Source of the DNA: Apostichopus japonicus
Taxonomy: Eukaryota; Echinodermata; Holothuroidea; Aspidochirotida; Stichopodidae
Length of the DNA: 64,000 bases
Direction: 5' to 3'
Assembly (NCBI RefSeq): GCF_037975245.1
Contig: NC_092581.1
Location: 18,157,303-18,221,302, forward strand
Shown: positions 21,619 to 60,700 of the stretch, piece after piece
Layout of the letters: every line of letters starts with the position of its first letter
Numbering within the stretch: position 1 is the stretch's first letter
Notes under the pieces: model-generated
The model's database searches: none
What the model was told of the DNA's origin: nothing
The model's input: only the letters and a program-made list of their open reading frames with translations
Position numbers and translations under genes: made by a program

Positions 21619-22865
21619 CAGTGGCGGCGGAACCGGGGGGGGGGGCTTGGGGGGGCTCAGCCCCCCAATGAAAAAGTTGAGGGGCAAATGCATGATAAGC
21701 CCCCCCCCCCCCCCCAATATTTACCAAGGCTCCGAAACATGCATCTGCCCATTTTTGAATGCATACTTGTCGATCTGTCCGATGCACACGTATACTATAT
21801 AGGTGTAATAATTAAATATGATAATTGATTGTCTGTATCATGCCTCATCGAATATTAGTGTTTTAAATAAGAGGGTAATAAGCTAAACGCTACACCCATC
21901 AACATTTGCGTTTACACTACGAGTACACGCAAGGCGTGGAACATGGCTTTATGATTAAATTTTATGTTCAATCAAGTATTAAACGAACAAAAACACAATA
22001 TTGGCATTTCAACTGTACTGTATAGGGGACATGCATTCATGACATGATGACAGTGCTAGGTCATAGAAATTTGTTGGCAACTGCACATGGTTTTGGAATT
22101 ACCCATTTGTTGACATTAAGAAATGCTTTCTGTTTTTTCTTATGACATTTATTTAATTCAGGGGCGTCGGAGCCGGTACGGGCAGGTCCGGCGAACACCG
22201 GACCAATATTCACGACGCAAAAAAAAAAGTAGGACTAAAAAATGGAAAAAAAATCTCGGAGGTATATGTTTCAATAATTTTCAATAATGATGACGGCAAT
22301 TAGGCTACTGTGACTACTCTGGTATGGCAGGGGTCTTGTTTTCAAGCTCGGGAAGTGCCGTTTCCTGTTATCTGGGAGGCATATTTTCAAAATTTTCTCA
22401 ATTACACTACGCGCCAATCATGGTGCCGCGTAGCGTAGTTTGACCTACCAAACGTCCCCCCGATAATTATGATAGTTGGCCACACTCTCAACCGCCGTAC
22501 ATATAGCTTCCGACGCCCTTGTAATTATTGCATTTAATTGCAAGTAGTAATTTACTACTCTCAAAAAACGTCTTTGCGAGTACACGTCGAGGAATAGCTG
22601 CTCTCTTAAAACACCATCGAATATACAAATTACAATGTTTTTACAGATTTTTACGTGCAATCTGAGAAATTGCAGGCTTGAGACCCTTGTTTTAGGGCTA
22701 GGTATTCGCAGCATAAAACACTCGGGAAGTGCCGTTTCCGGCCATCTGGGGGGTTTGAAAAACCCAAAATTTTCTTGTACGCTCCGCACCAACCGATGGT
22801 GGCGCTCCGCTTAGATAGTCTCCACATATTAGCCCCCCAATAATTTTCCCGTTCCGCCGCGCTTG
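21619..22865. mobile_element. hAT-like non-autonomous element, unit 1 copy
   Basis: The ends are CAGTGGCGGCGGAACCGGG and, inverted, CAAGCGCGGCGGAACGGGA. Flanking 8-bp repeats are GTACCTGC and GTATCTGC (one difference). Unit 3 shows the empty site (GTATCTGA at about 53,102), and unit 2 carries the same insertion. There is no transposase. A smaller element is nested at 22,159-22,521 and a copy of the recurrent core module at about 22,720-22,820. Confidence 0.8.
22159..22521. mobile_element. Nested 363-bp element with 5-bp target duplication TAATT
   Basis: Ends CAGGGGCGTCGGAGC and, inverted, CAAGGGCGTCGGAAGC lie between direct repeats TAATT. It sits inside the hAT-like element and is copied in unit 2 at 38,387-38,748. 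Confidence 0.7.
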
Positions 22866-23206
22866 GTATCTGCCTCCGTATAACAAACAGTTCATTAAAA
22901 ACAGTTTAACACAACTTGTGCTGTGAATGAATGTTACCAAGAATTTGTGTACTTTCTGTGTTCTATGGAGTTTAAATATTTAGTTAAGATATTGCAAACA
23001 TGTTTTTTTCAAAAGAAGCCAAGCCAACACCCAGGGGCGTAGCGAGCGGGGGGGGTGTGGGGGGTGTCACACCCCCCCCCCCAATAATTTGGTCGCTGTC
23101 GGCAAATTTTGGGTCTGTCGGCAAAAGGAGAAAAGGTGAAGAGAGCGGAAGGGGAAGAAAGAAGGAAAGCTGAATAGAAAAAGGAGAACGGGAGCTTCTT
23201 CCGTGC

Positions 23207-23574
23207 CAAATTTGACTTAAAATATGCACCAGATTGCGTCTAAGGACGTTCAAACTAATTTTTCCAAAGGGGAGGGGTAGACCCCCTACCCTTAGACCCA
23301 TCCCCCATTTCAGTCACCACTTCCAGATCCGTCGGCAAATCAAATTTGACTTAAAATATGCACCAGATTGCATCTAAGGACGTTTCAAAACTAAAAAATT
23401 GCCAAAGGGGAGGGGGACACCACCTCCCCTTAGACCCCTCCCCATTTTAGTCACCACTTCCAGATCCGTCGGCAAATCAAATTTGACTTAAAATATGCAC
23501 CAGATTGCATCTAAGGACGTTTCAAAACTAAAAAATTACCAAAGGGGAGGGGGACACCCCCTCCCCTTAGACCC
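23207..23574 (+). repeat. Three tandem copies of a 135-bp repeat inside the hAT-like element
   Basis: CAAATTTGACTTAAAATATG recurs at 23,207, 23,341 and 23,478, each followed by GCACCAGATTGC, AAGGACGTT and an AAAGGGGAGGGG run. The third copy is split by the retroelement insertion and resumes at 28,148. Confidence 0.85.
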
Positions 23575-23851
23575 TGTAAATCAATAAAGATTTCTTTATT
23601 CCGTATTCCTGTAATCCAAAGATTATTCAACGCAGAAGAAATGTTGAGTCGATTCGTAGTTTATTAGCTTTGATATCTGGTAACTATCTGGTAATCTGTT
23701 AATCTGCTAATCTGTTAATCTGTCAGTCTGTCAGTCTGGTTCTCTACTCTCATGTATCTTTTGGGCGACATTTGCCCACCCAGTTTGAAGATAAACAGGT
23801 AACAAACTGTGAATCTTAAGAAGGTTACTTGTTGAATTTAGGTCATTTACA
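23575..23851. repeat. Left terminal direct repeat of the retroelement
   Basis: 277 bp bounded by TGTAAATC and CATTTACA. It contains a polymorphic run of AATCTG/GTCTGTCA hexamers, and its length differs from the right copy only through that run. Confidence 0.85.
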
Positions 23852-24092
23852 GTTTGTTACCTGTTTATCTTCAAACTGGGTGGGCAAATGTCGCCCAAAA
23901 GATACATGAGAGTAGAGAACCAGACTGACAGACTGACAGATTGACAGATTAGCAGATTAACAGATTAAAAGATTACCAGATAGTTACCAGATATCAAAGC
24001 TAATAAACCACGAATCGACTCAACATTATATCAGCGTTGAATAATCTTTGGATTACAGGAATACGGAATAAAGAAATCTTTATTGATTTACA
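23575..24092. repeat. Large palindrome (two about 235-bp arms)
   Basis: The left arm 23,575-23,808 is matched in reverse complement by 23,852-24,092, around a 43-bp centre. The arms are the terminal-repeat sequence in opposite directions. They differ by a few bases and by the hexamer count. Confidence 0.88.
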
Positions 24093-24237
24093 GTAAATAA
24101 AATCTTTGGTTTAACACTGGAAAATACTTCTTGCTTCAATACGTTCTTGATATCGACTGAACTCAAATTACGGTAAATGACCGTAAAGACAGAACCAACA
24201 AAAACAACAAATTTCAAACACATATGGCTCCCTGGCG

Positions 24238-24604
24238 GAATCATTACAGTTTTCAAGAGTAGCGATGGGAAAGTAAGAAGTGTTGAAGTTAAGGTTCGTA
24301 ATAAAATACTCAAAAGACCGATCACGAAATTGTGTATTGTAAAGAGAATGTCTGATTAGTCTCATTGTTCATTTTTCTTTGAATATATATTGCTTTGTCA
24401 CAGTGTACTAAATTTGTTTGATTGGTTGTAAATGTGTGTAAAATCCATATGATTTAACAGGGGGGAGTGTAAACGCGCTCACACGATGTGTTGTTTGTGT
24501 ATTGTTACGAAGTGTGCGTCATGTAAAGTTGCAGTGCTACTGCGCGTGTGCGTGTTTGTGCGAGTGTGCGTGCGTGCGTGAGTATGTGTTTGAAATTTGT
24601 TGTT
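24238..24604 (+). repeat. Duplicated pol 3' end plus LTR start (left copy)
   Basis: This 367-bp block is nearly identical to 25,943-26,309. Both include the last codons of integrase, the stop, a GGGGGGAG polypurine tract and the following TGTAAACGCGC. Placed upstream of the integrase region, it acts as a direct repeat bracketing that region. Confidence 0.88.
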
Positions 24605-26064
24605 CTTAATGTATCTACTTTAGTTAATGATAATTTTTCTGAGCAGTTAATCTCCAGGTTTTCATCGTGGACAAAGTTAGTCAAGGTGTTAGCTTGGGTC
24701 TTTCGCTTTGTTAATAAGTGTAGAGGTTCATTGGCAGCAAGTGGCATAAATCTGTATCAGAAATCGAAGCGAGTGAAACTACCATAATTTCATGGGTCCA
24801 AAAGTCGGCGTTTAAATCCTGGCAGCGTGACCAGCGATTATTTAAACTCAAACCCATTCTTCTTGGAAATGTACTTAGAGCGGGGGGTCGTCTCGACAAT
24901 GCTGATTTGGGAAATGACGTTAAGCACCCAATTATCTTGCCCCCTAGGGGAGCAGTAGTCACACTCATTATTAGATATTATCATGAGTCGGTAGGTCATG
25001 GTGGTTTGGCCATGACGTTAAGTGCCATTCGGCAAAAGTTTTGGCTACTGAATGGTCGAACAGCAGTGAAGAGTGTAGTAAGTAAGTGCGTTATTTGTCG
25101 TAAGATCCTTGCACGGCCTTCTTGTCAGATAATGGCCGCATTGCCTTCGGAGAGAGTCTCCTCTGACAAACCTCTTTTTAGTTTTGTCGGCGTGGACTAT
25201 TTTGGGCCATTCGAAGCGAAAAGAGGTCGCTCGACCGTAAAGAGGTTCGGTTGCATTTTAACTTGCTTGTCCTCCAGAGCTGTTCATTTGGAAGTTTGTG
25301 AATCCCTTGATGCTGATTCCTTCCTTAATGCTTTCAGACTTTTTGTAGCAAGAAGAGGTCAGCCAGTTAAGATTTTTAGCGACAATGGTTCTAATTTCCA
25401 AGCTGGCGAGAAAGAGCTGAGAAATGCTTTTAAAGCCATGAATAAAGATGATGTAGAAGCCTTTTTTCATAGTAAAGGTTGTGAGTGGCACTTTAACCCT
25501 CCTACAGCCAGCCATTTCGGAGGAGCATGGGAAAGGCTTATCAGGTCGGTTAGAAGGATTCTAAGAGGCGTCCTGAGGCAGCAAACGGTCACTGATGAGG
25601 TTCTTACTACTGTACTAGCTGAGGTTGAATCTATTCTCAACTCAAGACCTCTCACTGACTTCTCCTCAGATCCAAAAGATGAGGAGCCTCTTACTCCAAA
25701 CCACCTGCTTTTGATGAGACACGGGCCTGACACCCCAGTTGACGCAGGAGTCTCTTACGACCGTAAAAGATGGCTTCAAGTACAGTACCTTGCTTCTTTG
25801 TTTTGGAAGAGATGGCGGAAAGAATATCTGCCTCTCCTCCAAAAACGCCATAAGTGGAATGTTCCGAAAGAAAATGTTGTCGTTGGGGACATAGTTCTCC
25901 TCACCGACGAAACAATTCCACGCGGAAAATGGCCTTTAGCTAGAATCATTACAGTTTTCAAGAGTAGCGATGGGAAAGTAAGAAGTGTTGAAGTTAAGGT
26001 TCGTAATAAAATACTCAAAAGACCGATCACGAAATTGTGTATTGTAAAGAGAATGTCTGATTAG
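24603..26064 (+). pseudogene. BEL/Pao pol remnant: integrase region, frameshifted upstream
   Basis: The open frame 24,724-26,064 encodes a BEL/Pao-type integrase, which would insert the DNA copy into the host genome. Counting from the Met at 24,907, a zinc-binding H-H-C-C module is seen (H26, H31, C61, C64). The catalytic triad is present as D97 (GVDYFGPF), D159 (SDNGSNF) and E209 (GGAWERLI). EPLTPNHLLL follows, a BEL/Pao signature. Just upstream, related pol sequence (SSWTKLVKVLAWVFRF) lies in another frame and ends in a stop at about 24,785, so the chain is broken. Reverse transcriptase and protease are absent. The catalytic residues are intact, but a functional product is unlikely. Confidence 0.85.
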
Positions 26065-26161
26065 TCTCATTGTTCATTTTTCTTTGAATATATATTGCTT
26101 TGTCACAGTATACTAAATTTGTTTGATTGGTTGTAAATGTGTGTAAAATCCATATGATTTA

Positions 26162-26424
26162 ACAGGGGGGAGTGTAAACGCGCTCACACGATGTGTTGTT
26201 TGTGTATTGTTACGAAGTGTGCGTCATGTAAAGTTGCAGTGCTACTGCGCGTGTGCGTGTTTGTGCGAGTGTGCGTGCGTGCGTGAGTATGTGTTTGAAA
26301 TTTGTTGTTTTTGTTGGTTCTGTCTTTACGGTCATTTACCGTAATTTGAGTTCAGTCGATATCAAGAACGTATTGAAGCAAGAAGTATTTTCCAGTGTTA
26401 AACCAAAGATTTTATTTACTGTAA
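26162..26424 (+). repeat. Polypurine tract and LTR-like start
   Basis: GGGGGGAG at 26,165-26,172 is followed directly by TGTAAACGCGCTCACACG, as expected at the 5' border of a 3' LTR. A GT-rich stretch and a block that also occurs inverted at about 24,093-24,205 follow. The LTR runs into a CAATAAAG polyadenylation-like signal near 26,430. Confidence 0.75.
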
Positions 26425-26793
26425 ATCAATAAAGATTTCTTTATTCCGTATTCCTGTAATCCAAAGATTATTCAACTCAGATATAATGTTGAGTCGATTC
26501 GTGGTTTATTAGCTTTGATATCTGGTAACTATCTGGTAATCTTTTAATCTGCTAATCTGTCAATCTGTCAGTCTGTCAGTCTGGTTCTCTACTCTCATGT
26601 ATCTTTTGGGCGACATTTGCCTGTAAATCAATAAAGATTTCTTTATTCCGTATTCCTGTAATCCAAAGATTATTCAACGCAGATATAATGTTGAGTCGAT
26701 TCGTGGTTTATTAGCTTTGATATCTGGTAACTATCTGGTAATCTTTTAATCTGTTAATCTGTTAATCTGCTAATCTGTCAATCTGTCAGTCTG

Positions 26794-27861
26794 TCAGTCT
26801 GGTTCTCTACTCTCATGTATCTTTTGGGCGACATTTGCCCACCCAGTTTGAAGATAAACAGGTAACAAACTGTGAATCTTAAGAAGGTTACTTGTTGAAT
26901 TTAGGTCATTTACATACCCCATCTGAGTTAAGGTAACGTAACACCTCTGCATTTCGGATATGAGCTTCCACAAGCTTTCTCCGTCATTAGCCTTAATCGA
27001 TTTGCGACTAACCAATTTACTCATCAAAGAATTCAGAATCAGATGCGGTTGACCAAATTGACGTTTCAAAATTGCCTTCGCGCTTTCGTAACCTTCGTCA
27101 CCTAGAAGCGCGCAACTTTCGATGCAGAAACGCGCTTTACCTTTACATAGCTGCAGCAAATACTGCAAACGCGCGGCATCACCGCTCAATTTACTTGCCA
27201 CGTTAACTTCGAAATTGGTTATGAAGTACCAATAATCTGTGGGGTCTCCATTAAACTCAAATACCTCAGCCTTCGGTAACTCTAATGCCAATTTGAGTTC
27301 GTTAAACCCGAATACATAGTTGGAATCACAACTAGAACTATACCTATTTGAACTTAAATGTGGAAGACCTTCACCATTCTTCATGTCTACGTTACTATTA
27401 TTACCATCGGTAATATCATTAACTTCCTTAGAGCTAACACAATGACTAACGTTACTATTCTTAGTAAAAATACCGTTATCATCATTGTCGGTTAACCTCT
27501 TTTCCTCGTCGCCTTCGGGAGCTTCTGAGGTCCTCTCGGGCCCTTTTCTGCTTAGGTCTACATACCTCTCGACTTCGATCTTTACGGCGATGAACTTGCT
27601 GACTACGTCCGCCATCCATTCTTCTTCCAAAATAAACTTATCTTCTTCCAAAAGCTTTTCAATCACAGCTTGATGGGCCTCTTCTATTGCTTCTAAATTT
27701 GTATTCGCTTTCTCTAAGAGTTCCTTCACAGAGTCTATTCCTGCGTCCTCTCTAATGAGAGTAGAAATATAATTAATTGCTCTAGTCAAGGTCCCCTTCT
27801 TATTCCTGCGCCGTATTAACAGCGTCTTCATCGTAAGGGCCTCGTCTGTTGACATCTTCAA
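26794..27861 (-). pseudogene. BEL/Pao gag-like ORF (opposite strand to integrase)
   Basis: A 355-codon ORF resembles the DUF1759/DUF1758-associated Gag of BEL/Pao elements, the structural protein that packages element RNA. Recognisable segments are LPKAEVFEFNGDPTDYWYFI, FEVNVASKLSGDAARLQYLL and a following LCKGKA. The N-terminal 90 residues are helical and charged; about residues 105-165 are Ser/Asn/Asp-rich. The last 40 codons lie inside an internal copy of the terminal repeat (below 26,914) and end early. No zinc knuckle or protease follows, so the product is truncated. Confidence 0.8.
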
Positions 27862-27878
27862 TTATAGATTTTATTTAC

Positions 27879-28147
27879 TGTAAATCAATAAAGATTTCTT
27901 TATTCCGTATTCCTGTAATCCAAAGATTATTCAACGCAGAAGAAATGTTGAGTCGATTCGTAGTTTATTAGCTTTGATATCTGGTAACTATCTGGTAATC
28001 TGTTAATCTGTCAATCTGTCAGTCTGTCAGTCTGGTTCTCTACTCTCATGTATCTTTTGGGCGACATTTGCCCACCCAGTTTGAAGATAAACAGGTAACA
28101 AACTGTGAATCTTAAGAAGGTTACTTGTTGAATTTAGGTCATTTACA
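27879..28147. repeat. Right terminal direct repeat of the retroelement
   Basis: 269 bp, same borders as the left copy and the same diagnostic bases (AGAAGAAATG, CGTAGTTT). Read on the minus strand it lies 22 bp upstream of the gag start, where a 5' LTR would be. I see no clear tRNA primer site after it. Confidence 0.82.
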
Positions 28148-28249
28148 GACCCCTCCCCCATTTCAGTCACCACTTACAGATCCGTCGGCAAATCAAATTC
28201 TCCACACCCCCCCCAACAAAAACCCCTTCGCTACGCCCCTGCCAACACC

Positions 28250-29692: not shown

Positions 29693-31581
29693 TACACACA
29701 AACGCCATCGTGAATGCAAAGGTTACAGTTTTCATCGAAACCAAGAACCTTCCTTACAATTTCTATTGTCTATAAATGCTGCGGCAATGGCGTGCCCAAA
29801 GCCATTAGATCATCCCCTTCATTGCATTGTCAGTCAGGAGAAATCCATGTTCACGGGCCTGATTGATGTAGTGTTCACAGTCAGGCAGTATAGCACTATT
29901 TTTAGCAAAGTAATGTTGTTTGTGACACATAAGGGTTTCACATATAGCCTATAAACTGAGACGGGATGTCCTCAAAACGGATTGGTTGTCCCCAGAACAT
30001 ATTAGAAACATCATAAAACTAATGAGGTTTACCAGGTGCATTCCCTCCAGGGGGTTGGGGGGGGGGAGGGGATAGACTCTGGTCCAGTTGTACAGTTTGG
30101 TCTTTGCTTGTTAGTTTCGTCCCCGATTTTCAATACCCACACTGGGTATATAGGAGCAGGTTATAAAAAAATACCATAAATTCTGTTGTTATCGGCATTG
30201 TCCTATTTATTGCAAGGAAAATATATTGTCCCTCTGACAAACTCAAATGATTTTCGAAAGGTCTTTGTGAAGTTAATGGAAAGCACTATTTGTACGAAAG
30301 GCATACAAAACTAGAGCATCGATGCTGTAGAATCCCATTACTATACTGATGTGCTGGTACTTTAATGCTTAGTGTATCAGTTAAGACAGGTATTACAAGG
30401 TACTGTTGGTGGAAGTGAACAGACATTTTCATGCACAAAACCTAAGTTACAAAACAGATCACAATCCTACAGAATCACATAAGGTCAAAAATGAGCAAGA
30501 TAAAGCTTTAATTACCTTAAAATCAACCCCCGAGAAACATACCTTTTTATCACATACCACTGGCAGGACAGCTTTGAAACTTACTATTAACTCACAACTG
30601 TATAATATATTGTGTAAGATGCCACTTTCAAGCAACAGTTTTCTTTTCAAGAGTTTACTTCCAAGTTGTTTAGACTAGTGTAGGTCCATTGTCAAATCGA
30701 GGCTTCACTGCCAGATAAGGACTATCTCTATTGGTCTCAGCACAGTATTATAATTGTTCAGTCAAGTGTGTTGGTAGCTCTCTGAACTTGAGATGCACAA
30801 CATCATTTGTTTAACTATTTTACTAGCTGTGCTTAAGAGCATGTTAGAAGGTCTGGAACCATCTAAAGTGGTTTTCTGTGATTTGACATTAAGATGTAAC
30901 AAATGTATATATATGCTTGATGATGATTTCATTACTCTGTGTCAACCAGGGAAGATATCATTTGATGAACCCGATATTTGTAGCAAAACAATATTAATAA
31001 ACACCCCCACACAACTTCTAAAGGCAGACTTCATTCTCCTTTAATATCTACAGCATTGCATGTGTTGTTTTCAGCACACAAAGACATTCCTCTGCCCCTC
31101 CCCTGCCAAGTACTTGAGAACTGCACAGGGTAGAACTAATTCTCCAAGTAAAGATTAATTACACAAACAAAGAAAACAGCTATTTTCATACATGAATTAC
31201 ACAGTTTGTTCTTGCACAATACTGCACAAATACCTCTGATTGTACTGTCAAATGGGCTTGGAAGTACAACTGAAACAGATTTCAGGATATTGTCTATTTT
31301 GATTGGCTATGGTATTTTTCTTGTGATGATCGAATGCATTTGATTTTGCACTGAACCTGCAACAAACTCTATAGCATAATGCTTCAGAGAACCTCAGTAT
31401 TAGCACACTGCTTCAAATGCACAAAGCAAGCTTGAGTCCCTCCCTGTGTTCTTCTCAATCTTTTCAGAACCTTGCTAGTCCTCTTTTACCAGCTTCATCT
31501 GGATGCATCCAACTATGAATCGCTCATAATTTAAGTTGAAACTTGAAATCTGACATTCTTCAGCTATCAAACATTGTAATT
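29693..31581. other. Conserved non-coding block downstream of MRPS6 exon 3
   Basis: This block is present in all three units. Short plus-strand ORFs are disrupted by indels between units (for example 30,793-31,044 is frameshifted in unit 3), so I read none as a gene. On the minus strand it follows the MRPS6 stop and may include a 3' UTR. Confidence 0.5.
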
Positions 31582-32197: not shown

Positions 32198-33189
32198 TAA
32201 TATAGGGCAGAGAGTGAAACAGTGTTTCTAGTTTGGCGTTTGAAACTCCAAAATTGAATATCATTGATTTCAAACATTTCATTTTTTCATTACGACCCAA
32301 GGTTGTCTATGTAGCAGTAAAAACATTGGAACTTTTTACCATCCCTAATGTTCAGCTAATAATCCCTAATTGTAAAAAATTGAGAGCCCACACAAGTCCT
32401 ACCCATATACACAGGGTACATTGTCATAAAATAACAGTAAATTCATATTTGACATTTTTTCATCCGATTTGGCCATCAATTCTGGTCGGTTGCATCACAA
32501 AAAACTGGCAACCCTAGAGTGAATCTATATTATAAATGGCCATATTGTTGTGTATATAATTGCAATAGCTGTAGATCAGTGTTTTATAAATGCTTACAAT
32601 ATCAACAAGGACAGAAACTATCATACGAGAGTGTATCATTATGATTGTGTTTTATTTTTCTTATAAGCACAGCATGTGAGACAAAAGAAAGAAAATAGCT
32701 CTTCAAGTTTAAAAAGCATGAACATGAAATGAAGCAATTTACATGATATAAATATTGCCATGAAAATGGTTTCAGATGAACAGAATGCATCTTCCACAGG
32801 TTCATGTACTGTAGTACATATTGAACAGAATGAATTTAAAGTTTAAGCCTTTGTTAAAGCTGATGCCAAGTCTAGGGTTCTGTTCTATTATTATATATAT
32901 ATTACTTTACAAAGATCTTTGCACAATTTTTAAAACAAATAAAAATAACAGAGGATATCTAAAATACGGTTCTTCAATTTTCTTCTTCAATTAATCAATT
33001 CTTTTCTTCACATTTTCTTCAACAGAGTGTGAAGCCCTGCCATGGGGTCCTGATTGTGTTTTCTCCTGAAACGGAGATACCTCTCGTGACCGCTTCACCG
33101 GAGTTTGATATGAATGTCATCTCCTTCTGTCAATAGATGGACAATGAACCGACGAGAGAGACGCTGTACATTTCATTTACAGTACATTT
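32198..33189. other. Shared tail of unit 1
   Basis: AT-rich sequence repeated in unit 2 (47,510-48,475) and begun in unit 3 (63,770 on). A block near 33,020-33,165 has higher GC but does not encode MRPS6 exon 1 or 2 in any frame I read. No gene is supported. Confidence 0.5.
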
Positions 33190-35375: not shown

Positions 35376-35661
35376 TGAGATCACCATCAACTAAGGGCTG
35401 GATTGCTTAGAAGAGCGATGGGTTTGTAATCCAGTGGTCAGTGGTTCAAATCACGTTCTAGCCATAAATTCCTTTGTCCTTTCCAAATTTGACGTTTGGT
35501 ATCTTGACATTCTGGCCAGGGACATAGACCTGCAAAATCATGGAAGTAAAATAATGGAATACAATTGTCCTCTGGTCACGTAATCCTAATAACTTTACTG
35601 TCGAAAATAAGCTTTTAACAATGTCGAGAAACGTGTTACACTGGCAACATTTATCATGTTT
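35376..35661 (+). mobile_element. tRNA-like SINE insertion, units 2 and 3 only
   Basis: About 285 bp absent from unit 1 (which reads GCTATATTAGTGGTC straight through). Near 35,395 it holds a plus-strand tRNA-Thr-like stretch: GGGCTGGATTGC, TTTGTAATCCAG, then GTGGTTCAAATC (B box). The unit 3 copy is at about 50,875-51,161. Deletion in unit 1 is an alternative. Confidence 0.6.
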
Positions 35662-36726: not shown

Positions 36727-37024
36727 GATGATAGTAAGATATGCTTCTTAGTCGATATATGTGTCAAGACTGAACCATCGGACTATGAAGACGTTAAAAT
36801 TTATAAAGTCAGGTAGCAGGTTCATGAGTATAAAGCGCCTTTTACTCCGTACGAGGCGTAAAATCATTAGCTTGCTACAAGCTAACTGCTCTGATCGTAA
36901 ATGCGGGCAGCGGGATACATTGAGTTTACATCCACATATACATATACACACCCACACAACTATATATATATATATATATATCATAAAAATTATATATATA
37001 ATTGAAATAAATGTAGCCTACATA

Positions 37025-42995: not shown

Positions 42996-43420
42996 TGCGT
43001 GTAATAAATTTGCAAAAAGAGTACACCATCATTCTGATAAAGTGAAGGTGAGAGGGGCACTCTGACTGCATCAATAGTCTCCATCTGGAAGGGGGCATCC
43101 AAGATGAAATGGCCTGGAGTAGCCTGGTAAAAAGTAGTTTGCATCACCACCTATACTCCCCAAAGACGTAAATCCCAGCTCATTGCTCGAAATTGCAAAT
43201 ATATGCCCGGCAAACCATGAATACATGATTTATTGGAAATAAATTTTACTCCAAACTTTCACGAAAAGTAGCACCAGATTGCACCGAGGACCTCCATATT
43301 TTGTGAAATTTTCCCAAAGGGGAGGGGGGCACCCACTCTCCTTAGACCCCTTCCCCAGGACGACGATTAGGCATTTCCCATCTGGGCCCCCCCTTCGGCG
43401 AAATCCTGGATCCGCCACTG

Positions 43421-45067: not shown

Positions 45068-45082
45068 ATATAGGGCAGAGAG

Positions 45083-47509
45083 CAGGGGCGTATCCAGGAT
45101 TTTCTAACCCGGGGGGCGCGAATTACTATCTAAGCGGAGCGCCACCATCGGTTGGCGCGCAGCGTACAAGAAATTTTCTGGTTTTGATACCACCCAGATC
45201 ACCGGAAATGGCACTTCTCGGGCTTGAAAATGACCAACCAGATGTACACTTTTTGCCTGAGAACCAAGTATTTCCCAATAGTTTTTTTTTCATCCATAAC
45301 CTTTTTGAAGTTTGTCACCAGTCACACATCATGTTCAACCTCATCGCATGTCCTGTGGATCATTGCTTTTGTAGGTGATTCTACGTCGCGGCCCACAATA
45401 TCCGTCAGCCCCACTTTTGAAGGTTTTCAGCCCATTATTTGTTCAGAATTTGAAAATTTACGTTTCTCGTGATTAAACTCAATTCAAAATATACCCATAA
45501 TGTTGCACAAAATTTCATCTATGGACAACCAATATAGAAAAACCCAAGGGCGGCGGAAGCACTTTTAATCTGGGGGGGGGGGGGCACCGACATCAAAGGA
45601 CACTTTGCAGATATTCGATTGGACTGATGCAGCCTTATATTTAGTACCCTTTATAAATCTTTTTGTATTTATCTTATTTGCGTATACACATCATCCCATC
45701 AACGCCCCCCCCCCCCCCTCAAGGAAAATATGCATACTAGCACTGCAATATCCAATGTGCAAATTAGGAAACATGGAACAAGTTTCTTTTGAGACAAAAT
45801 GAGGTGAAATCATGCTAGTTGCTAATGTAGGAATCTTCCGAATTAGAATTTATTTCTTGATAATATCTTATTATTTTTTTCCATTCGAAATAGCTTTGAG
45901 TTTGACCCACAGAAATTCATTAGAAAGTCAGCGGCGTAGCCAGGATTTGCAAAGTTGTATGCACGAGCGGAGCGCCACCATCGGTTGGCGCGGAGCGTGC
46001 AAGAAATTTTTTGGTTTTACAAACCCCTCAGATGGCCGGAAACGGCCCTTCCCGAGTGTTCATTCTGGTTCCCTGGCCTTTTGCTAACTTGAGACACCTA
46101 AATTTTTATGTAGAAAAAGGGCACATTTTTAACCTGAGGAAAAGTGGGGGGCACGTGCCACCTGTGCCCCACGGTTCCGCCGCCCTTGGAAAAACCTCCT
46201 TGAACCCCTAACAGACTGGTCAATATTGCACGAGTAGAGGGACGTGTGATGAAGAATGTGGGTCAGAAATTTTCAAAAATTCAGACACAGTTAATTTCTT
46301 GGTGTAGAAATATTGCAACCTCTTATAACGGCTATTATAAAACTTGGTTGAAGGAAATGAAAAAATAGCAGATATTTCCTTCAACCGAACAATACACACA
46401 TAGGCGTAGGATGCGGGGGGTGGGGGCTGCAGCCCCTAATTCGCCATTACTAATGTAAAAGAGAGTTTTGACATAATTGGACTTCCATGATTTTTCTCCA
46501 TTTACATAAGACATTTTGTTGTTTAAATTAGCATCCCGCGGTATACTGCGCAACTTTCACGGACCGTACGGAACACGATGGCATCTGATGTAATAACCGA
46601 TTCTTGCTTATATGATATTGACATTAACATGTTGGACGCGCGCTTCGCGCGCGAAAATTTTTGGTTATTTTTTTTCGGGCAAGTCGGACAATTTTGAGGG
46701 TGTTCATCCTGGAACGCCATTTTCATGCTCACTGATATGATGTGATATCTGCTGTTTGCTTTACAAATTCGAACAGGCGCGTAGCGAGGAATTTGCCAAG
46801 GAAAGGGCGAAGCCTGTAGGCAAATTATCTAAGCGTAGCGCCCCATTAGTTAGCGCGAAGCGTACAAGCAAATTTTGGCCGAAAATGCCTCCCAGATCGC
46901 TGGAAATGACACTTCCCAGGCCTTGTAAGTTGCATCTAAGCACTTTCTATTTTGAAATTACTAGCGATATCATTAAATAATATGCTGAAGGGGGGGCGGT
47001 CGCCCCCTTCCCGAAATTTGTCATGTTCCCCGACGACACGGTCGAGATCGAGACCAGCCACAGTTGGTTTCATTGCACTGTTCTACAATTGATTAAGGCG
47101 TATATACACACACACGCGTTATGATATACCATATATAGTATATATATAGATCATGAGTAAGAGAAGAAAAATGGAAACGTCAAAAATTGAGTTGTCGGTG
47201 TAAGGGGTAGGGTGAGGCACACGCCTCTTCCGAAATCCTTGATCCGTCACTGGCTACCCTGTGTATGTAATAGGGATCAGCGCTGTAATAATGTCACTGT
47301 TCCTCTTTCTCTTCCCGGTGTCTTGGCGTTTTTCTTTAACTCCCTCCTTTTTTCCTTTTTCTCTCTTTCTTCTTTTTCTTTTCCCTTCCTTCCTCTCCTC
47401 CTCCTCTTTCCCCCCTCTTTTTTCCTTTTTTCTTCTCTTTTTTTTCTCTCCTCTTTTTCTTGCCCGGGGGGCGCGCGCCCCCAACGCCCCCCCCCTGGAT
47501 ACGCACCTG
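45083..47509. mobile_element. 2.4-kb element, ends CAGGNGCGTATCCAGG, target duplication GAGAG (unit 2 only)
   Basis: It starts CAGGGGCGTATCCAGG and ends, inverted, CAGGTGCGTATCCAGG, flanked by GAGAG. Unit 1 has one GAGAG at the empty site (about 32,206). The left part holds a core module (45,126 on). The interior holds a nested hAT-like element (45,545-46,188), a hairpin near 46,347-46,387 and a GC-rich hairpin near 46,637. The right end is the polypyrimidine block. It is related, in reverse orientation, to 54,213-56,429. No transposase is seen. Confidence 0.87.
45545..46188. mobile_element. Nested 644-bp hAT-like element, exact 8-bp duplication GAAAAACC
   Basis: Ends CAAGGGCGGCGGAAGC and, inverted, CAAGGGCGGCGGAACC. 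Both flanks are GAAAAACC. The related element in unit 3 (about 55,975) and the fragment near 59,430 read through without it, giving two empty sites. It contains C and G runs and its own core module (about 45,960-46,055). Confidence 0.88.
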
Positions 47510-50610: not shown

Positions 50611-51201
50611 AAATTCAGATGACCAGTTCTTATCGATGCCCTGTCCTTTGTCAGTGATCCGTCTTATCACCACCAAAGAGATACGAACAAAATACGTACT
50701 TACGCAAACAATTTGACTTTTTATTATTATGATAATGACTGGGAAATTTAGACAATGGAAGAGATCCAAAAAATGTATGGCTTGAACGGGATTCGAAGCA
50801 GCGACGTCTGGATTACAATGTTGTACGGTTCTGTGGTTTCTGGCTGTCACCCCCAACTAAGAAATTGCTATATTGAGATCACCATCAACTAAGGGCTGGA
50901 TTGCTTAGAAGAGCGCTGGGTTTGTAATCCAGTGGTTCAAATCACGTTCTAGCCATAAATTCCTTTGTCCTTTCCAAATTTGACGTTTGGTATCTTGACA
51001 TTCTGGCCAGGGACATAGACCTGCAAAATCAAATGAAAACATGGAAGTAAAATAATGGAATACAATTGTCCTCTGGTCACGTAATCCTAATAACTTTACT
51101 GTCGAAAAGAAGCTTTTTACAATGACGAGAAACGTGTTACACTGGCAACATTTATCATGTTTAGTGGTCATTTCTATGCCAAATTGAAGTTATTTGACCA
51201 A

Positions 51202-52227
51202 TCATTCTGACGAAGTTGAACAACAGACAATTCTACTGAGGAGACTTTTTTCCCTGCACCGAGAGTGACTATTTTCTAATAAACTGGCATCCTCGTCGTT
51301 ATTGCCTTTATTTTCCTCACTATGTGTAATTATAATTCCGAGACAAGATATGATAATAAAGAACAAAGCAACACAGATTTGCCAAGACAATTGTTTTTCT
51401 AACAGAAGGTATTCTCCGAAATACGTTATTATAACGTCAGATAATAATATCGTTGTCACCACGCTTGGGTTCTCTTTCGTCACAGCGAAAAATTCAAATG
51501 CCAGCCCTCCGGATAAAGAGATTCCCGTTAGTACCATCACAAGAACATCTCGGTTATCCCCAAGAATACCCCAAGATTTGGAGAGCGTTGTTGGTAGCAA
51601 CGACACGATGAGGTACTGTATGGCATAAGATGTTATCATTATGCTGTAGTCGATTTCATTCTCTGACAGTTTGCGAGCAATCACTATGGAGGCAGCGGAT
51701 GCTAAGGCACTGAATAAACCACAGATTACTCCAAAAATAGATTGCGGAATTATTAGTTCTGTATCTCCCTTCTCTTCCTCTTGGCGTCTGTTGAAAATAT
51801 TTGTAGAGAGAACAAAGACAGCAGCTATCGCAGAACCTGCGAATAGTGGATCCGTCCATCTGAACGCATTTTGAAGAAAGATGGCGCTGAAAATGATAAC
51901 GAAGATAGGTTCTGTATAAAATATCAAATTTCCATCTCCGGGTCCTAAGTTGAAAACAGCAAGTACAAAGAGGGTGTGCCCTATAGCAGCAGTAAACCCG
52001 AAAGCTAAAACAGGTAAAGTTGTTAGACCTAAATTGAAGGTAGGACGCCTGCATAACGTGAAGATGGAAACGCACAGAGTTAATGCGAAAGCAGAAACAG
52101 TGATGGTAAAATACCGATTTGGCTGACAACTAAACCTAGCAAGTAAAATATTTTCAGCGGAAAAGCTAAAAGCAGCTGCGATCGCTGAGGAGATTCCAAC
52201 GATACGGTCTAGTGCGGACTGCTTCAT
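51202..52227 (-). CDS. SLC35G/EamA-type drug/metabolite transporter, copy 3
   Basis: Full-length 341-residue copy of the ten-span transporter. Private differences include S4, N37, F56, T69 and GDNRD in the loop before span 8. From residue 87 on it mostly matches copy 2. As in the other copies, an ATG a few bases downstream of an upstream stop starts the frame and the C-terminus ends in a Cys-Cys-Ser-rich tail. There are no introns or disabling changes. Confidence 0.85.
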   Translation of the reverse strand: MKQSALDRIVGISSAIAAAFSFSAENILLARFSCQPNRYFTITVSAFALTLCVSIFTLCRRPTFNLGLTTLPVLAFGFTAAIGHTLFVLAVFNLGPGDGNLIFYTEPIFVIIFSAIFLQNAFRWTDPLFAGSAIAAVFVLSTNIFNRRQEEEKGDTELIIPQSIFGVICGLFSALASAASIVIARKLSENEIDYSIMITSYAIQYLIVSLLPTTLSKSWGILGDNRDVLVMVLTGISLSGGLAFEFFAVTKENPSVVTTILLSDVIITYFGEYLLLEKQLSWQICVALFFIIISCLGIIITHSEENKGNNDEDASLLENSHSRCREKSLLSRIVCCSTSSE

Positions 52228-52543
52228 GATGATAGTAAGATATGATTCTTAGTCGAAATATGTGTCAAGACTGAACCATCGGACTATGAAGACGTTAAAA
52301 TTTATAAAGTCAGGTAGCAGGTTCATGAGTATAAAGCACGTTTTACTCCGTACCGTACGGACCGTACGAGTCGTAAAATCATTAGATTGCTACAAGCTAA
52401 CTGCCCTGATCGTAAATGCGGGCAGCGGGATACATTGAGTTTACATCTACATAAACATATACACACCCACACAAATATATATTTATATACATATATATGT
52501 CATAAAAATTATATATATAATTGAAATAAATGTATATAACCTT

Positions 52544-53880: not shown

Positions 53881-56800
53881 GACCGCCGCCCCTTCCCCTT
53901 AAGCATATTTTTTTGTACGTTTTTGTGCTAATAATTTCAAATAGAAAATGCTTAGATGCAACTTGTAAGGCCTGGGAAGTGCCATTTCCAGCGATCCGGG
54001 ATGCATTTTCGGGCCACAATTGTCTTGTACACTTCGCGCCAACTATGGTGGCGCCACGCTTAGATAGTTTCCAATGCCGAATCTACGGCTCTCATAATAT
54101 GCCTACTGGTTCGCCCCTCCCTTGGCAAATTCCTCGCTACGCGCCTGTTCGATGCAACACTGCCATCCAGAGATTAAATGTTATACACTCCGAACTGAAT
54201 GCTAATTGTTACCAGGTGCGTATCCAGGGGGGGGGGAGCGTTGGGGGCGCGCGCCCCCCGGGTAAGAAAAAGAGGAGAGAAAAAAAAGAGAAGAAAAAAG
54301 GAAAAAAGAGGGGGAAAAAGAGGAGGAGGAGAGGAAGGAAGGGAAAAGAAAAAGAAGAAAGAGAGAAAAAGGAGAAAAGGAGGGAGTAAAAGAAAAACGC
54401 GAAGACACCGGGGAGAGAAAGAGGAACAGTGACATCATTACAGCGCTGAAGGGTAGCCAGTGACGGATCAATGATTTCGTAAAAGTGTGACTCACCCTAC
54501 CCCTTACACCGACAACTCCATTTTTTGACGTTTCCATTTTCCTCTCTCACTAATGATCTATATATGTACTATATATGGTCTATCATAACGCGTGTGTAGA
54601 ATTGTGCTATGAAACCAACTGTGACTGGTCTCGAACTCGACCGTGTCGTCGGGGAACATGACGCATTTTGGGATGGGGGCGACCGCCCGCCCGCCCCCTC
54701 CCCATTCAGCATTTTTAAATGATATCGCTAAGTAATTTCAAAATAGAAAGTGCTTAGAGGCAACTTACAAGGCCTGGGAAGTGTCATTTCCAGCGATCTG
54801 CGAGACATTTTTGGCCAAACTTTGCTTGTACGCTTCGCGCTATATAACAAATGGTCCTGGGTAGTGCCATTTCCAGCGATCTGGGAGGCATTTTACGGCC
54901 AAAATTTTCTTGTTCGCTTCGCGCCAACCTATGGTGGCGCTACGCTTAGATAATTTGCCTACAGGCTTCGCTCCTCCCTTGGCAAATTCCTCGCTACGCG
55001 CCTGTTCGAGTTTGTAACGCAAACAGCAGATATCACATCATATCAGTGAGCATGAAAATGGCGTTCCAGGATGAAAAGCCTCAAAACTGTCCGACTTGCC
55101 TGAAAAAATAACCAAAAATTTTCGCGCGCGAAGCGCGCGCTCAACGTGTTCATGCCAATATCATATAAGCAAGCATCGGTTATTACATCGCATGCAATCA
55201 TGTACCGTACGGTCCGTTCAAATTGCGCAGTATTTCGCGGGATGCCCATCTAAACAACGACATGTCTCATGTAGATGTATAAAAAGCATGGAGGTCCAAT
55301 TATGTCAAAACTCTCTTTTACATTAGTAATGGCGAATTAGGGGCTGCACCCCCGCCGCGCAGTGGCGGAGCGTCCATACGGTCGGGGGGGGGGGTGCCCC
55401 CCCCTGACGGACTCAAATGGACTGCTGGCGCCTTTTTCAGCTCTTTACCACTTTTTACTTATTCCTGATTATTGACTTTTTTATTGCGCTCTCATCTACT
55501 TATTGACATTTGTCACATTTTGTTGGTGTAATTTCGCGATGACACCTTATTCTTCGTTTATCTGCAAATTAGCCAGGCCCGGAAAGGGTCATTTCCGGCG
55601 ATCTAGGGAATATCTTTATTCAAAAATTTTCTTTACGCTACGCGCCAACCAGTGGTGGCGCTCCGCTTAGATAGTGTCGAAAGCGCTCCTACAGACCATT
55701 CTCGCCACTCCTGACCAATACCCCTAGCTCCGCCACTGCCGCCGCGCCTCCTACGCCTATGTGTGTAGTGTTCGGTTGAAGGAAATATCTGCTATTTTTT
55801 CATTTCCTTCAACCAAGTTTTATAATAGCCGTTATAAGAGGTTGCAATGTTTGTACACCAATAAATTAACTCTGTCTGAATTTTCCAAAATTTCTGACCA
55901 ACATTCTGCAGCACACATCCCTCTACTCGTGCAATTTTCACCGGTCTGTTAGGGGTTCAAGGAAGTTTTACTATATTGGTTGTCCATAGATGAAATTTTG
56001 TACAACATTATGGGTATGTTTTCAAGTGAGTTTATTTACGAGAAATGTGAATTTTCAAATTCTGAACAAATATGGGGCTTAAAACCTTGAAAAGTGGGGC
56101 TGACGGGTATTGTGGGCCGCGACGTAGAATCACCTAGCTACAAAAGCAAAGACCCACAGGAGATGCCATCAGGTCGAACATGATGTGTGCCGGGTTGACA
56201 AACTTCAAAAAGGTTATGGATGGAAAAAAAACTATTAGGAAATACCTGGTTCTCAGACAAAAAGTGTACATCTGGTTGGTCATTTCAAGCCCGAGAAGTG
56301 CCGTTTCCGGTGATCTGGGGGGTTTCAAAACAAGAAATTTTCTTGTACGCTGCGCGCCAACCGATGGTGGCGCTCCGCTTAGATAGTAATTCGCGCCCCC
56401 CGGGTTTGAAAATCCTGGATACGCGCCTGGTTACCCCAAACTTAGTACAATGAATCTAAAAATAAATTCCGCATGCGATTGGAGAATTCGGCACATCTCC
56501 TGTGAATATCATGTAGTGGATCCAAAGGCGTATCATGGCGGGGGGGGGGGGGGCGGACGCACCCATTACTTCTTGAGATTGTTCCCATCTGCATGAAAAC
56601 GCGCGCCCCACAACCCTACGCCCCACCCTTCTAATGGCTTCCCGATGGGTTACTACGTTCGCCAGTAGTACCAAGACGTTGACAAAATCCGAGAACACAT
56701 GTACCACTTCATCGCTAACAAGTGATCGGGATTTGCATTAGTGACGTCCTGAGGTCGTGGACTGATGACTTACATGGATTGTGACCACACCCGATTTTGC

Positions 56801-57704
56801 AATTTCCCAAGATCAGGACCCGAAAAATCCCAAAGACACTGAACTGTATGGATATCTAGCAATATCTAGCGATATCTATAGGGATGAAAATCCCAAGATC
56901 TTCCCTAAACTGAAGGCAAATAGAGAATCGAAGCCTGCAGTGTGTAATGAACTTGAAACTGTACGTCTTTCGATATGAAAAAGAATGTGAGCATTGCACA
57001 ATAAACAGATAAAGTTATTTATTTCAGTCTCATATCAATTATTCGAATTTGTAAAGCAAACAGCAGATATCACATCATATCAGTTATAGCATGAACATGG
57101 CGTTCCAGGATGAACAGCCTCCAAACTGTCTATGTGTGAAGTCATAGGCGTAGCAGCCCAATTTGATTGGGGGCTGTAACGACTTGCCGGAAAAATATAA
57201 CCAAAATTTTTCGCGCGTTCCACGCTCATTCAACACGTTTAGGTAAATATCATATAGGCAAGTTGGTTATTACATCGCATGCCATCGTGTACCGTACGGT
57301 CCGTGAAAGTTGCGCAGTATACAGTGGGATGCCAATGAGCAGCATGAGAAGTGCCATTTCCGCTGATCTGGGGGGTATGAAAACCAGCAATTTTCTAGTA
57401 CGCTGGGAGCCAACCGAAGGTGGCGCTCCGCTTAGAAAGTAATTCGCACTCCCCGTGTTAGAAAATCCTGGATACGCGCCTGTGTACGACACTCATACAC
57501 GTTTAGACACCCACTTAAATATGGAATAGGCTCACCTCCCCCTCCCCCTCCCCCTCCCCACAAAGCATGTTTGAAATTAAAATGTTTGTATACTAATTTT
57601 TGCTGTGTTGTCTTCTTTGCCACGATGGCTGCTCATAGGATGGTGTATGGAGATTATATAAAGAAGACCAGAGTAGATTGAAAATAAGTTTGTATGATAC
57701 ATAC
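53881..57704. repeat. Nested element mosaic replacing unit sequence in unit 3
   Basis: After GAATTGCTTCTCG unit 3 leaves the shared unit sequence and enters degenerate elements. These include core modules near 53,960-54,068, 55,580-55,675 and 57,345-57,440, an intact element at 54,213-56,429 and a fragment near 57,040-57,485 that ends CTGGATACGCGCCTG. No coding gene is supported. Confidence 0.75.
54213..56429. mobile_element. 2.2-kb element, ends CAGGNGCGTATCCAGG, target duplication GTTAC
   Basis: Starts CAGGTGCGTATCCAGG, ends CTGGATACGCGCCTG, flanked by GTTAC on both sides. It is the reverse-oriented relative of 45,083-47,509: purine-rich tract (54,270-54,400), two core modules (54,775-54,955), GC hairpin (55,124), the TTGAAGGAAAT hairpin (55,775) and a terminal core module (56,290-56,390). 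It lacks the 644-bp nested element of the unit 2 copy. Confidence 0.87.
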
Positions 57705-60700
57705 TAGGGATGCACCGGATCCAAATTTTTGAATCCGGCCGGAACCGGATTTTGCCGGATAGTACAAGAAATCCGGCCGGAACCGGATTTTTTCATTACA
57801 CAAAAGAAAATCATTAATAAGAAGTAGAAGTATGAAACAAGGAGCAAATCTTAGGTGAGGTAAACGCATATTATAAAGAAGGTGAAATTAAGACCCCATT
57901 TATGAGATTAAATATGACTTGAAGTGGTGTAATCTACATTCTTTAATAAAATAACTACAATATAATTGTTGACAAGCTTGATACAGTATGTAAATTTATT
58001 TGCTGGAAAATACTGCATACTACCTATGAAGTTTGTTTTAAAACAGGAAGCTACATTTCACAAATCTCATACTTTATACTGACTAAAAAGATTATTTAAT
58101 TGTTGTAATAACACTACTATCTGGATTTAGAATTGTCTTTTATTATTCATTATTTGGTAACAATTTTTTTACACTGCAATATTATCTGTAAAATAAAATA
58201 AAAAAGCATTGCATCTTTTCAGAAGTGGAAGAAACTTCTTATCTATCTTTTAATTATCCTTTAAAATGGAATTGAATGTTTATTAGAACACTTATTGATT
58301 AGGTTTTTCATGAACTTTTAGGAACTTTCATGGTGACAAGAGATATCTCTTTCTGTGAGAAAATTAGATACTGTTTTTCTGTGACTGGCACCCCATTTGG
58401 TGGAAACTCTTCTAGTCCATTGCTTCATCTATTTATTAAAGTGCCAAGATTACAATTTGCATATTGCCATGACCACAAACAATGAGTAACAATTGACAGC
58501 TTTCTAGACAGGAAATGGACTGTAGTGGTCCACAAAAAGATCCATTGTTTTTGACTTCTTAAGGTCCTAATGCACTTGCTTGGATTTTGGACATTTCATT
58601 TCATGCAAGTGTTTCTCTCTGACAAGTAGTATTGTTAATGAAAGTTATTTCACTATAAGATTTGGAATATGGCTTCCTCATTTATTTGGAAGCATTTCAG
58701 TGTTCAGGATCAGGCTGATGAAATTGCAGAGTGTAATTAAAAAAATTCAGACGTATTTAACCATATAAGAGATTGTTTCACAGTCAGTGGCGGAGATTTC
58801 TTGTCAGAAGTGGGGGGGGGGTTGTAGTGGGGGGGGGTTGTAGGTCATTGATGAAATAAAAAGTCACAACTGCTGGCTCACTATCTAAGTGGAGCGCCAC
58901 CATAAGTTGGCGCGAAGTGCACAAGAATCTTTTGGCAAATATTGCCTCCCAGATTGCAGTAAATGGCACTGCCCAGGCCTTGAAAAGCTGCATTTAATAA
59001 GGGGCGTATGCAGGATTTTCTAACCCGGGGGGGGGCGCATTACTATCTAAGCGGAGCGCCACCATTGGTTGGCGCGCAGCGTACAAGCAAATTTCTGGTT
59101 TTGGTACCCCCAGATCACCGGAAATGGCACTTCTCGGGCTTGAAACTGACCAACCATATGTACACTTTTGCCTGAGAACCAAGTATTTCCAAATACTTTT
59201 TTCTCATCTATAACCTTTTTGAAGATTGTCACCAGTCACACATCATGTTCGACTTCATCACACATCCTGTGGATCATTGCTTTTGTAGGTGATTCTTCAT
59301 CGCGGCCCACAATATCCGTCAGCCCCACTCAGTTCAGAATTTGAAAATTCACAATTCTCGTGAATAAATTCACTTCAAAACATACCCATAATGTTGCCCA
59401 AAATATCATCTATGGACAACCGATATAGTAAAACCTCCTTCAAACCCTAACAGACGGGTCAAAATTGCACGAGTATGATGAAGTATGATGAAGAATGTTG
59501 GTTAGGGAATTTTCGAAAATTCAGACGGCAATTAAAAAATTTCGTTGAAGGAAATAAAAATATACCAGTTATTTCCAAAACCGAACACTACACACATCGA
59601 CAGTTTTGAGCATGGGCGCAGATCAGTCTTGGATAATGGTGGGGATGCGTGTATGCTCTCTGATACTATCTAAGCGGAGCGCGACCATGGGTTCGCGCGT
59701 AGCGTACGATTTTTTTGGGCAAATATACCTCCCAGATCGCCGGAAATAACACTTCCCAGACCTAATGATACTCCTAAACCTCCTTAAGTTTTAGATCTCA
59801 TGCCTTAGAAATTTAGTTTGGAGAAATACTTGGGCGTCTGCAGAAAGAAAATCAGGGGACAAATAATCCAAGCAGACTTTTGTATATACGATGGGTCTGG
59901 GGTCCTCTCCCAGAAAACAAATATAGACTGCCGCAAATGCGATTTCCGTCCTATATTTAACAACTGTGGATAAAATACAATAAAATGAGAACTGCTGCAT
60001 GTCACACACAATGCTGGATCAAACTGCGCAAAAGTTCAATACAGGGGAACTTGAAATGCAGCTATTGGTCAAGACAAATTAGTGGGGACACGGTATATCA
60101 TGTCCCCACTACTGAAAAAAGTTGGTGGGGACGCGTCCCGCTGTCTTCACCAGGATCTGCGCCCATGGTTTGGAGGCTGTTTATCGTGGAACGCCATTTT
60201 CATGCTCACTGATATGATATGATATCTGCTGTTTGCTTTACAAATTCGAATAATTTTGTCACTGTCCCTCTTTCTCTTCCCGTTTTCTTACCGTATTTTC
60301 TACTCCATCCTTTTCTCTCTTTCTTCTTTTTCTTTTCCTTCCTTCACCTCGTTGAGGTTGGCAAGTGTATACAGTTCCAAAGCTATTCAACAGCAACAAA
60401 ACGTTATTTTGTGTATGTCTGTTGTGGGGTGAAGTTAGCGCTATGAAGCTACAAGTTCCAATGCGCAAGGTGGGGGAAAGGGGCTAGAAATAATGTGTGG
60501 GTCAATTCTATCTCGGTTTTCGGTCGTTAATTGTTGATGTAGCCTACCAGGTAAAAAGTTGAAATGACTTTAACAATTTCAAATTCAATAATTTGATTTA
60601 TTATGCCATTTGGAGCGCATAACATAGGCTATAACAGAACATTACTGGCTAAAACTAGGGGGGGGGGGTTGATTGTGTGGGCCAACCCCCCTCTTCAAAA

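Follow-up and report, generated by a model that had tools for sequence, protein, structure and literature searches.

A block of about 100 bp, here termed the module, is a subterminal part of hAT transposons and recurs in a 64,000-nt stretch of the genome of the holothuroid Apostichopus japonicus (NC_092581.1, positions 18,157,303 to 18,221,302), referred to below as the window. The module is present in an autonomous-looking hAT element, in deleted copies that retain a transposase fragment, and in miniature inverted-repeat transposable elements (MITEs). Its core shares a motif with many of the insertion sites of a second transposon that is similar to the Drosophila P element, and insertions of this P-like transposon have recurred at a single position of the module. 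The chances seem about even that the module is a protein-binding cis site of the hAT end, read most likely by a host protein with CTCF-like specificity, and that the P-like transposon uses the same site. The module looks like a functional end block of a group of hAT elements, and its link to the target motif of a second transposon is the most surprising part.

The preliminary description of this DNA listed about 15 copies, and each of these positions holds a genuine copy as judged by pattern matching at up to three mismatches (Table 1). At that threshold the first 19-mer of the module has 14 matches in the window and a second module motif has 15, compared with none in 100 dinucleotide shuffles for either. 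Additional distant copies lie on the minus strand at 22,443 and 38,670, and there is a partial duplicate at 54,870. The genome scan that the preliminary description had proposed was carried out on the 672-Mb assembly (35 contigs, given C numbers) and found 8,902 exact copies of the first 19-mer and 10,318 copies of a 25-27-bp core, with no match to either pattern when reversed. The shuffles and reversed controls rule out a chance origin of the copies. Genome stretches taken for analysis carry L numbers; 40 of them were taken in order along contig C1 from the list of exact seeds and, together with the window, contain 87 module copies. Because these stretches were chosen by the exact seed, the sample leans towards copies with an exact start. 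The module starts with ACTATCTAAG, and at least 12 distinct leaders of approximately 37-95 bp stand in front of it, each opening with a hAT-like tip (CAGGCGCGTATCCAGG in family A, CAGTGGCGGAGCTAGG in B, CATAGGCGTACGGGACC in C and CAGGCGCGGCGGAACGG in D).

The borders of the module are sharp. Among 12 family representatives (66 pairs, mean identity against shuffled sequence), identity is 0.81 within the module (shuffled 0.58) and 0.55 in the 40 bp upstream (shuffled 0.55), where the leaders cannot be aligned between families. Downstream, where the tails cannot be aligned either, it is 0.58 (0.56) from +100 to +139 and 0.54 (0.55) from +140 to +239. A sharp fall of conservation outside the module, raised as a question in the preliminary description, is thus seen on both sides. 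The module is kept across families whose terminal repeats, leaders and duplication lengths differ, as had been claimed, and is therefore not simply the best-preserved end of a single family. The further claim that these ends are unrelated holds for the leaders and less so for the tips, which share a CA(G/T)nGGCG-like start and have an identity of 0.68 (shuffled 0.58). Change within the module is uneven in 40 copies picked by family (37 of the 87 and three from L043-L045), with a near invariant core and a variable spacer, which looks like constraint. The 5' border is alike in nearly all families even though no leader is shared.

A transposase with the hAT dimerisation domain lies in the same element as the module, bounded by terminal inverted repeats (TIRs) and target site duplications, in family D and, as a fragment, in family G. 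The D element at C17:6832476-6837994 is 5,519 bp long, has both D ends and a perfect 8-bp duplication (ATCGGATA), and contains an uninterrupted open reading frame (ORF) of 793 aa that matches PF14291 (5e-19) and PF05699 (4e-8), giving it the appearance of an autonomous copy. Another open frame of the same kind, 796 aa long, is found at C17:7012221. The D MITEs match the left end, part of the interior and the right end of the 5,519-bp element and therefore look like deletion derivatives. Family G was studied at six loci with a fragment of its transposase: L041, found through its module, and the five matches that follow. Five of the six have a G module on the 3' side of the gene and in the opposite orientation (L046 lacks it). 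Wherever a transposase is present, in D and G, the gene reads towards the module end, so that the module lies 3' of the gene, near the downstream tip. A role as transposase promoter is rejected for this reason. Of the cis functions suggested in the preliminary description, protein binding or insulation would fit the CTCF-like core described below. No transposase was seen in families other than D and G.

The module is absent from the ends of four other hAT elements for which both ends were found, two with 5-bp duplications (L047 and L049) and two with 8-bp duplications (L051 and L052). In L049 one of the two ends is weakly supported, matching the tip at 10 of 14 bases. L050, L053 and L054 could not be traced to both ends, and L052 has a single weak 19-bp module match in its interior. 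At a place similar to that of the module, L049 and L052 have TCTAAG and L047 has TCTAAT, followed by a GC-rich stretch. One form of this GGTCTAAGGGGAGGGGGTGCCCCTCCCC-like block of module-less hATs is matched 391 times in the genome at up to two mismatches.

Target duplications flank whole hAT elements. Perfect duplications were found for nine families, of 8 bp in B, C, D, E, F, G and H and of 5 bp in A and I; tip and duplication scans thus confirm the earlier statement that both types occur among module carriers. Some target duplication is present for 29 of the 87 copies. Elements holding 17 copies have perfect 8-bp duplications: B in L006, L018, L019, L027, L033, L035 and at window 55675; C in L002, L020, L038 and L039; D in L014, L015, L017 and L022; F in L030; and H in L025. 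These represent 13 distinct duplications, since L006, L018, L033 and the window copy share one and L019 and L035 share another. A further four copies have an 8-bp duplication with one mismatch, and the resulting 21 belong to B, C, D, F, H and J. The duplication in family A is exactly 5 bp in six of the eight copies with a paired right tip (L005, L012, L026, L031 and window 45083 and 56429); the other two, L011 and L040, have no target duplication, and the right end was not found in the remaining eight of the 16 A copies. The copies of a distant module version, Lt (window 22443 and its duplicate), have a 5-bp duplication. Beyond the 87, E is a 288-bp MITE with GAAATCGC at both sides (L053), G has perfect 8-bp duplications around the C-terminal transposase fragment in L042 and L044, and I has a 5-bp duplication in one copy, L043.

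The most constant part of the module is AGCGCCACC (GGTGGCGCT on the opposite strand). The sites read (A/T)G(A/G)(G/T)GGCGCT(A/G), as in AGAGGGCGCTA and AGGTGGCGCTA. One CTCF site of the fly, given in a passage of PMC7880997, contains AGAGGGCGCT, which is also found in L066, L070 and L098. When 15 of the 17 family consensuses were scored (two were left out), 12 matched the core AGRKGGCGC at 10 of 11 degenerate positions and at the same place, with lower scores in J, Lt and O. In 14 of the 15 the best core match occupies one and the same place, weaker in J and Lt, the exception being O. Among invertebrates, echinoderms are one example of animals that have CTCF, with an enrichment of its motifs at the boundaries of domains according to a passage of PMC13317027.

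In some module copies, two copies of NNNACTAT (NNN being leader bases) enclose a palindrome, CAGAGCCGT...ACGGCTCTG. Such palindromes number 323 in the genome, 36 of them with strict module flanks, and a set of 51 P-like footprints with strict module flanks shows ten different leader tails. Two larger copies of the P-like transposon were read (L082 and L083), approximately 4.2 and 4.6 kb long, both in module leaders and both with a perfect 31-bp TIR and an 8-bp duplication; in each, a second copy in inverted orientation begins after one shared duplication. TIR ends that lie side by side across the same 8-bp gap also occur on C2 (30236350), C3 (9800722) and C5 (20568373). The traits of the P superfamily are thus present, namely a TIR of about 31 bp, an 8-bp duplication and footprints with up to 17 nt of TIR. 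The P element itself is described in a passage of PMC7776569 as having a 31-bp TIR and 8-bp duplications and as being cut 17 nt inside the TIR, which could explain the palindromic footprints. No recognised transposase was found in the two larger copies, of whose 21 listed ORFs six were scanned and had no Pfam match. PF21787 has 45 matches genome-wide. On C1-C6, where the listing of TIRs is complete and the distance between the two was compared, there is one match (C3:19630435), 374 kb from the nearest listed TIR. The genome has roughly 170 larger P-like copies; the pentamer ACTAT is present at one end in 13 of the 45 on C1-C6.

When P-like sites outside the module are aligned by their duplication, a GGCGCT-like motif is often found exactly 8 bp beyond it, and AGCGCCACC stands at the same distance in the module. 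This offset was seen in a discovery set, written as a prediction for GGCGCT, and then counted on 39 further footprints, which are the palindromes listed on C1-C4 minus the set of 51 and the discovery set. Of the 39, eight have GGCGCT at the predicted offset (three of these are modules, L109, L111 and L116) compared with none or one at each of 23 other offsets, and ten have GGCGC there. A graded motif, written after the offset counts were seen, is present at the offset in 11 of 18 distinct non-module sites, with a total of five over 25 other offsets, and in six of the eight sites of the discovery set; footprints whose duplication matched at fewer than seven of eight bases were left out. The count of 11 of 18 uses the stricter rule for what is a module, and L089 was counted as a module by a looser rule.

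A mechanism that would account for these observations is as follows. A sequence-specific DNA-binding protein would bind the module and help the hAT end to work, whether by marking it, by keeping it open or by assembling the transposase complex. Given how similar the site is across families that differ in their terminal repeats and transposases, this factor would most likely be a host protein of CTCF-like specificity. MITEs would retain the module because copies that lack it move less, and the P-like transposon would land at the same bound or marked site. The motif common to the module core and many P-like insertion sites is a matter of observation, and from it and the sequence comparisons we infer the protein binding, the CTCF-like identity of the protein and the benefit to the hAT element. 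A bolder version, falling clearly below an even chance, holds that a guild of hAT elements built a CTCF-like insulator site into one end (more than 10,000 core copies) and that the P-like transposon evolved a fixed spacing of 8 bp from CTCF-like motif to duplication, for which the hAT ends would serve as landing pads.

Several points weigh against a CTCF-like host factor that serves both transposons. The likeness to CTCF spans only about 10 bp of core, and in family J this core is broken to GGTCGCGC, while Lt and O match it less well. The longer vertebrate CTCF consensus is unmatched upstream of the core. Seven of the 18 independent non-module P-like sites do not have the motif, and the one larger P-like copy looked at outside the module (L123) has none on the only flank read. 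The P-like transposase itself may read the motif. The 51 footprints in modules include repeated events, and 24 of them, with the tail CAA, are probably copies of a few events. The module-less L047 and L049, which have hAT ORFs, and L052 carry another block, which indicates that the exact module is not essential to hATs generally. A target duplication was not established for 58 of the 87 copies (nested, truncated, decayed, cut by the stretch or missed by the pattern). Finally, tip patterns were searched only up to 150 bp upstream of the module, so that the search itself partly determines where the module is seen to sit and which way it faces.

The principal alternative, which needs no host factor, is that the module is the transposase's own subterminal binding array and is read, like that of Hermes, by a BED domain or one similar to it. 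The left end of Hermes is bound by several BED domains and the right end by none, and this asymmetry matters (as stated in a passage of PMC10368747); by analogy, a one-ended block would fit hAT biology whichever protein reads it. The module is one-ended and subterminal like the left end of Hermes, its core is a quasi-palindrome (GCGCCACC-n-GGTTGGCGC), MITEs retain it, and the TCTAAG or TCTAAT blocks of L049, L052 and L047 occupy a similar place. However, G and D modules are 81% identical despite transposase C-termini that are only 36% identical (over 81 aa), and the module is kept in families with 5-bp and with 8-bp duplications while the tips cut by the transposase have diverged. This explanation also leaves the motif shared with the P-like transposon unaccounted for, and it is considered unlikely, yet deserves to be taken seriously.

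The module could instead have passed laterally from one hAT family to another, through recombination or nested insertion, such that its conservation would reflect recent common origin more than constraint. Its patchy presence (D and G have it; L047, L049, L051 and L052 do not) and the frequency of nested hATs here are consistent with such end exchange. In addition, the best local matches of the G transposase in the sample are L054 and L047 (51% over 53 aa), the second of which lacks the module, but G, a fragment of only 99 aa, is not placed with confidence in the transposase tree. Recent exchange agrees poorly with the near invariant core beside a variable spacer and with the same 5' border in nearly all families without a shared leader. 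As a full explanation end exchange is improbable, although it may have helped to spread the block that the preferred reading takes to be a protein-binding site.

That the module encodes a structured RNA, with hairpins and compensatory changes, is very improbable. From the alignment of the 87 copies, five truncated or overlapping ones were dropped and three identical ones merged. The measures are mixed. RNAalifold gives -37 and -43 kcal/mol for the two strands compared with -24 (sd 3) in 60 column shuffles, none of 500 shuffles reaches the observed covariation score or proportion of paired cells, and cells changed on both sides exceed 499 of 500. Free hairpin tests on 17 consensuses (with the K row trimmed at a wrong position) give Fisher p values of 0.003 and 0.025, and family J swaps a C-G pair to G-C. 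Yet related sequences can exceed column shuffles without any structure, as the tool itself warns; helix 3 is paired in only 69% of cells and helix 4 in 79%, the five pairs changed on both sides are reached by 101 of 500 shuffles, and when five sequences were folded singly, three did no better than their own shuffles. No Rfam family matches the module, and no one consensus structure holds across all families.

Least probable of all, and largely refuted, is the proposal of the preliminary description that the module is an independent small element preying on other transposons: its borders are sharp on both sides and some copies lack the usual leader (L007, L023 N and O, and L024), but direct repeats of at least 5 bp border none of 86 of the 87 copies (compared with 2 of 86 and 13 of 86 in two control windows), and the duplications that are found flank whole hAT elements. 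If there is a predator here, it is the P-like transposon landing in the module and not the module itself.

The elements resemble known hATs and hAT MITEs such as Hermes in the PF05699 dimerisation domain, the 8-bp duplications, the short tips starting with CA and the subterminal sequence at one end. They differ in that Hermes has 4-bp subterminal repeats (named in a passage of PMC10368747), whereas here a block of about 100 bp is 81% identical across families with diverged tips and transposases. The hAT5 group comprises hATs with 5-bp duplications (Kapitonov and Jurka 2007, as cited in part of PMC12730594). Its duplication length is seen in families A and I and also in L047 and L049, which bear a transposase; L047 and L049 lack the module, and no transposase-bearing A or I element was found. 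The P-like transposon shares the perfect 31-bp TIR, the 8-bp duplications and the palindromic footprints with the Drosophila P element. It differs in consisting mostly of 4.2-kb copies without recognised transposase and in its strong target motif, since P is described as not site-specific in a passage of PMC7776569. The likeness to the fly CTCF site is one of sequence and concerns only the core AG(A/G)(G/T)GGCGCT (PMC7880997, in the passage that prints the site). Mammalian transposable elements carry CTCF sites, as noted in part of PMC9902604, and would be comparable in that a repeat family spreads sites for an architectural protein; they differ in that here an end block is common to many hAT families and a second transposon lands beside the motif.

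If a host insulator-type protein marks thousands of transposon ends, these elements could distribute boundary sites ready for use and thereby alter how chromosomes fold. Landing of a cut-and-paste element at a fixed distance from such a motif would, if confirmed, be an unusual instance of precise targeting by an animal DNA transposon, and a natural reporter of the protein's positions. With the module it also becomes possible to test concretely why some noncoding end blocks of transposons persist longer than the transposase on which their movement depends. Among the literature titles listed by a search, none describes this module or a transposon targeting CTCF motifs, although either may still have been published. 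A text search for pieces of the module gave no transposon titles among the matches listed, and a collection of viral sequences scanned with the module pattern gave no match. The titles include that of a tool paper on modules in transposable element families (PMC2955051).

Table 1. Host elements and module copies in the window, with the larger P-like copies read elsewhere in the genome
Feature	Position	Strand	Basis or remark
hAT composite, family A ends	45083-47509	+	5-bp duplication GAGAG; three modules
Element inside A composite, D-like tips CAAGGGCGGCGGAA	45545-46188	.	Perfect 8-bp duplication GAAAAACC; holds F module
hAT composite, family A ends	54213-56429	-	5-bp duplication GTAAC; modules A, B and E
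Family B MITE inside A composite	55360-55738	-	379 bp here; 8-bp duplication CCGCCGCG
Family D MITE	21619-22865	-	Tips CAAGCGCGGCGGAAC / CAGTGGCGGCGGAAC; target duplication 7/8
Segmental duplicate of family D MITE	37851-39092	-	
Composite	41549-43420	.	5-bp duplication CATAC; modules I and K; empty site near 30553-30559
Family K element	41661-42995	-	Tip CAGTGGCGTAGCTA at both ends; target duplication only 6/8
Family J element	59611-60167	+	Tip CATGGGCGCAGATC; target duplication 7/8
Module, family D	22719-22819	-	Motif matches
Module, family D (segmental duplicate)	38946-39046	-	Motif matches and self-comparison
Module, family I	41738-41838	-	Motif matches
Module, family K	42818-42918	-	Motif matches
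Module, family A	45125-45225	+	Motif matches
Module, family F, first 8 bases lost	45958-46058	+	Second-motif match
Module, family E	46824-46924	+	Motif matches
Module, family E	53968-54068	-	Motif matches
Module, family E, then partial second copy at 54870	54854-54954	-	Motif matches
Module, family B	55575-55675	-	Motif matches
Module, family A	56287-56387	-	Motif matches
Module, family A, right end not recognised	57340-57440	-	Motif matches
Module, family M (E-like), target duplication not established	58880-58980	+	Motif matches
Module, family A, right end not recognised	59042-59142	+	Motif matches
Module, family J, core altered to GCGCG/CGCGC	59665-59765	+	Motif matches
Distant module version Lt, within D MITE	22343-22443	-	Central inverted repeat more fully paired
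Possible decayed P-like footprint at 5' border of module	54069-54115	-	
Larger P-like copy L082	C7:20689350-20694050		
Larger P-like copy L083	C2:24169900-24174900		

Self-comparison of the window shows that its segmental duplications keep empty sites for two of the insertions, 45083-47509 and 41549-43420. The empty counterpart of the first, at 32210-32214, holds a single GAGAG. Tandem amplification as the cause of the clustered modules is rejected for the B MITE and for the element at 45545-46188, because both are nested with their own 8-bp duplications in an A composite that has a 5-bp duplication. Other clusters consist of E modules in A composites and of D+B and C+F pairs. The arrangement of A, B and E is also found at L006, L018 and L033. 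One E subfamily (window 54854-54954, L006 and L011) has a partial second module about 80 bp downstream, and positions 501-1050 of L023 contain three module versions (I, N and O) that point the same way within 550 bp; no tip was recognised for the inner two.

Three segmental copies of one ORF lie at window 19593-20639, 35701-36747 and 51202-52248, and these duplicates provide natural empty sites for insertions; judged by eye, the ORF resembles an EamA/DMT transporter. A 5.2-kb stretch at 23032-28241 has hAT-like tips, an 8-bp duplication (CCAACACC) and several repeats of about 280 bp, and by eye its ORFs resemble BEL/Pao gag and integrase. A MIR2863 match in a repeat at 23763-23896 (E 2.4e-12) is under the gathering score. 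Matches to tRNA over the Rfam gathering score lie at 35396-35464 and 50894-50955, in two segmental copies.

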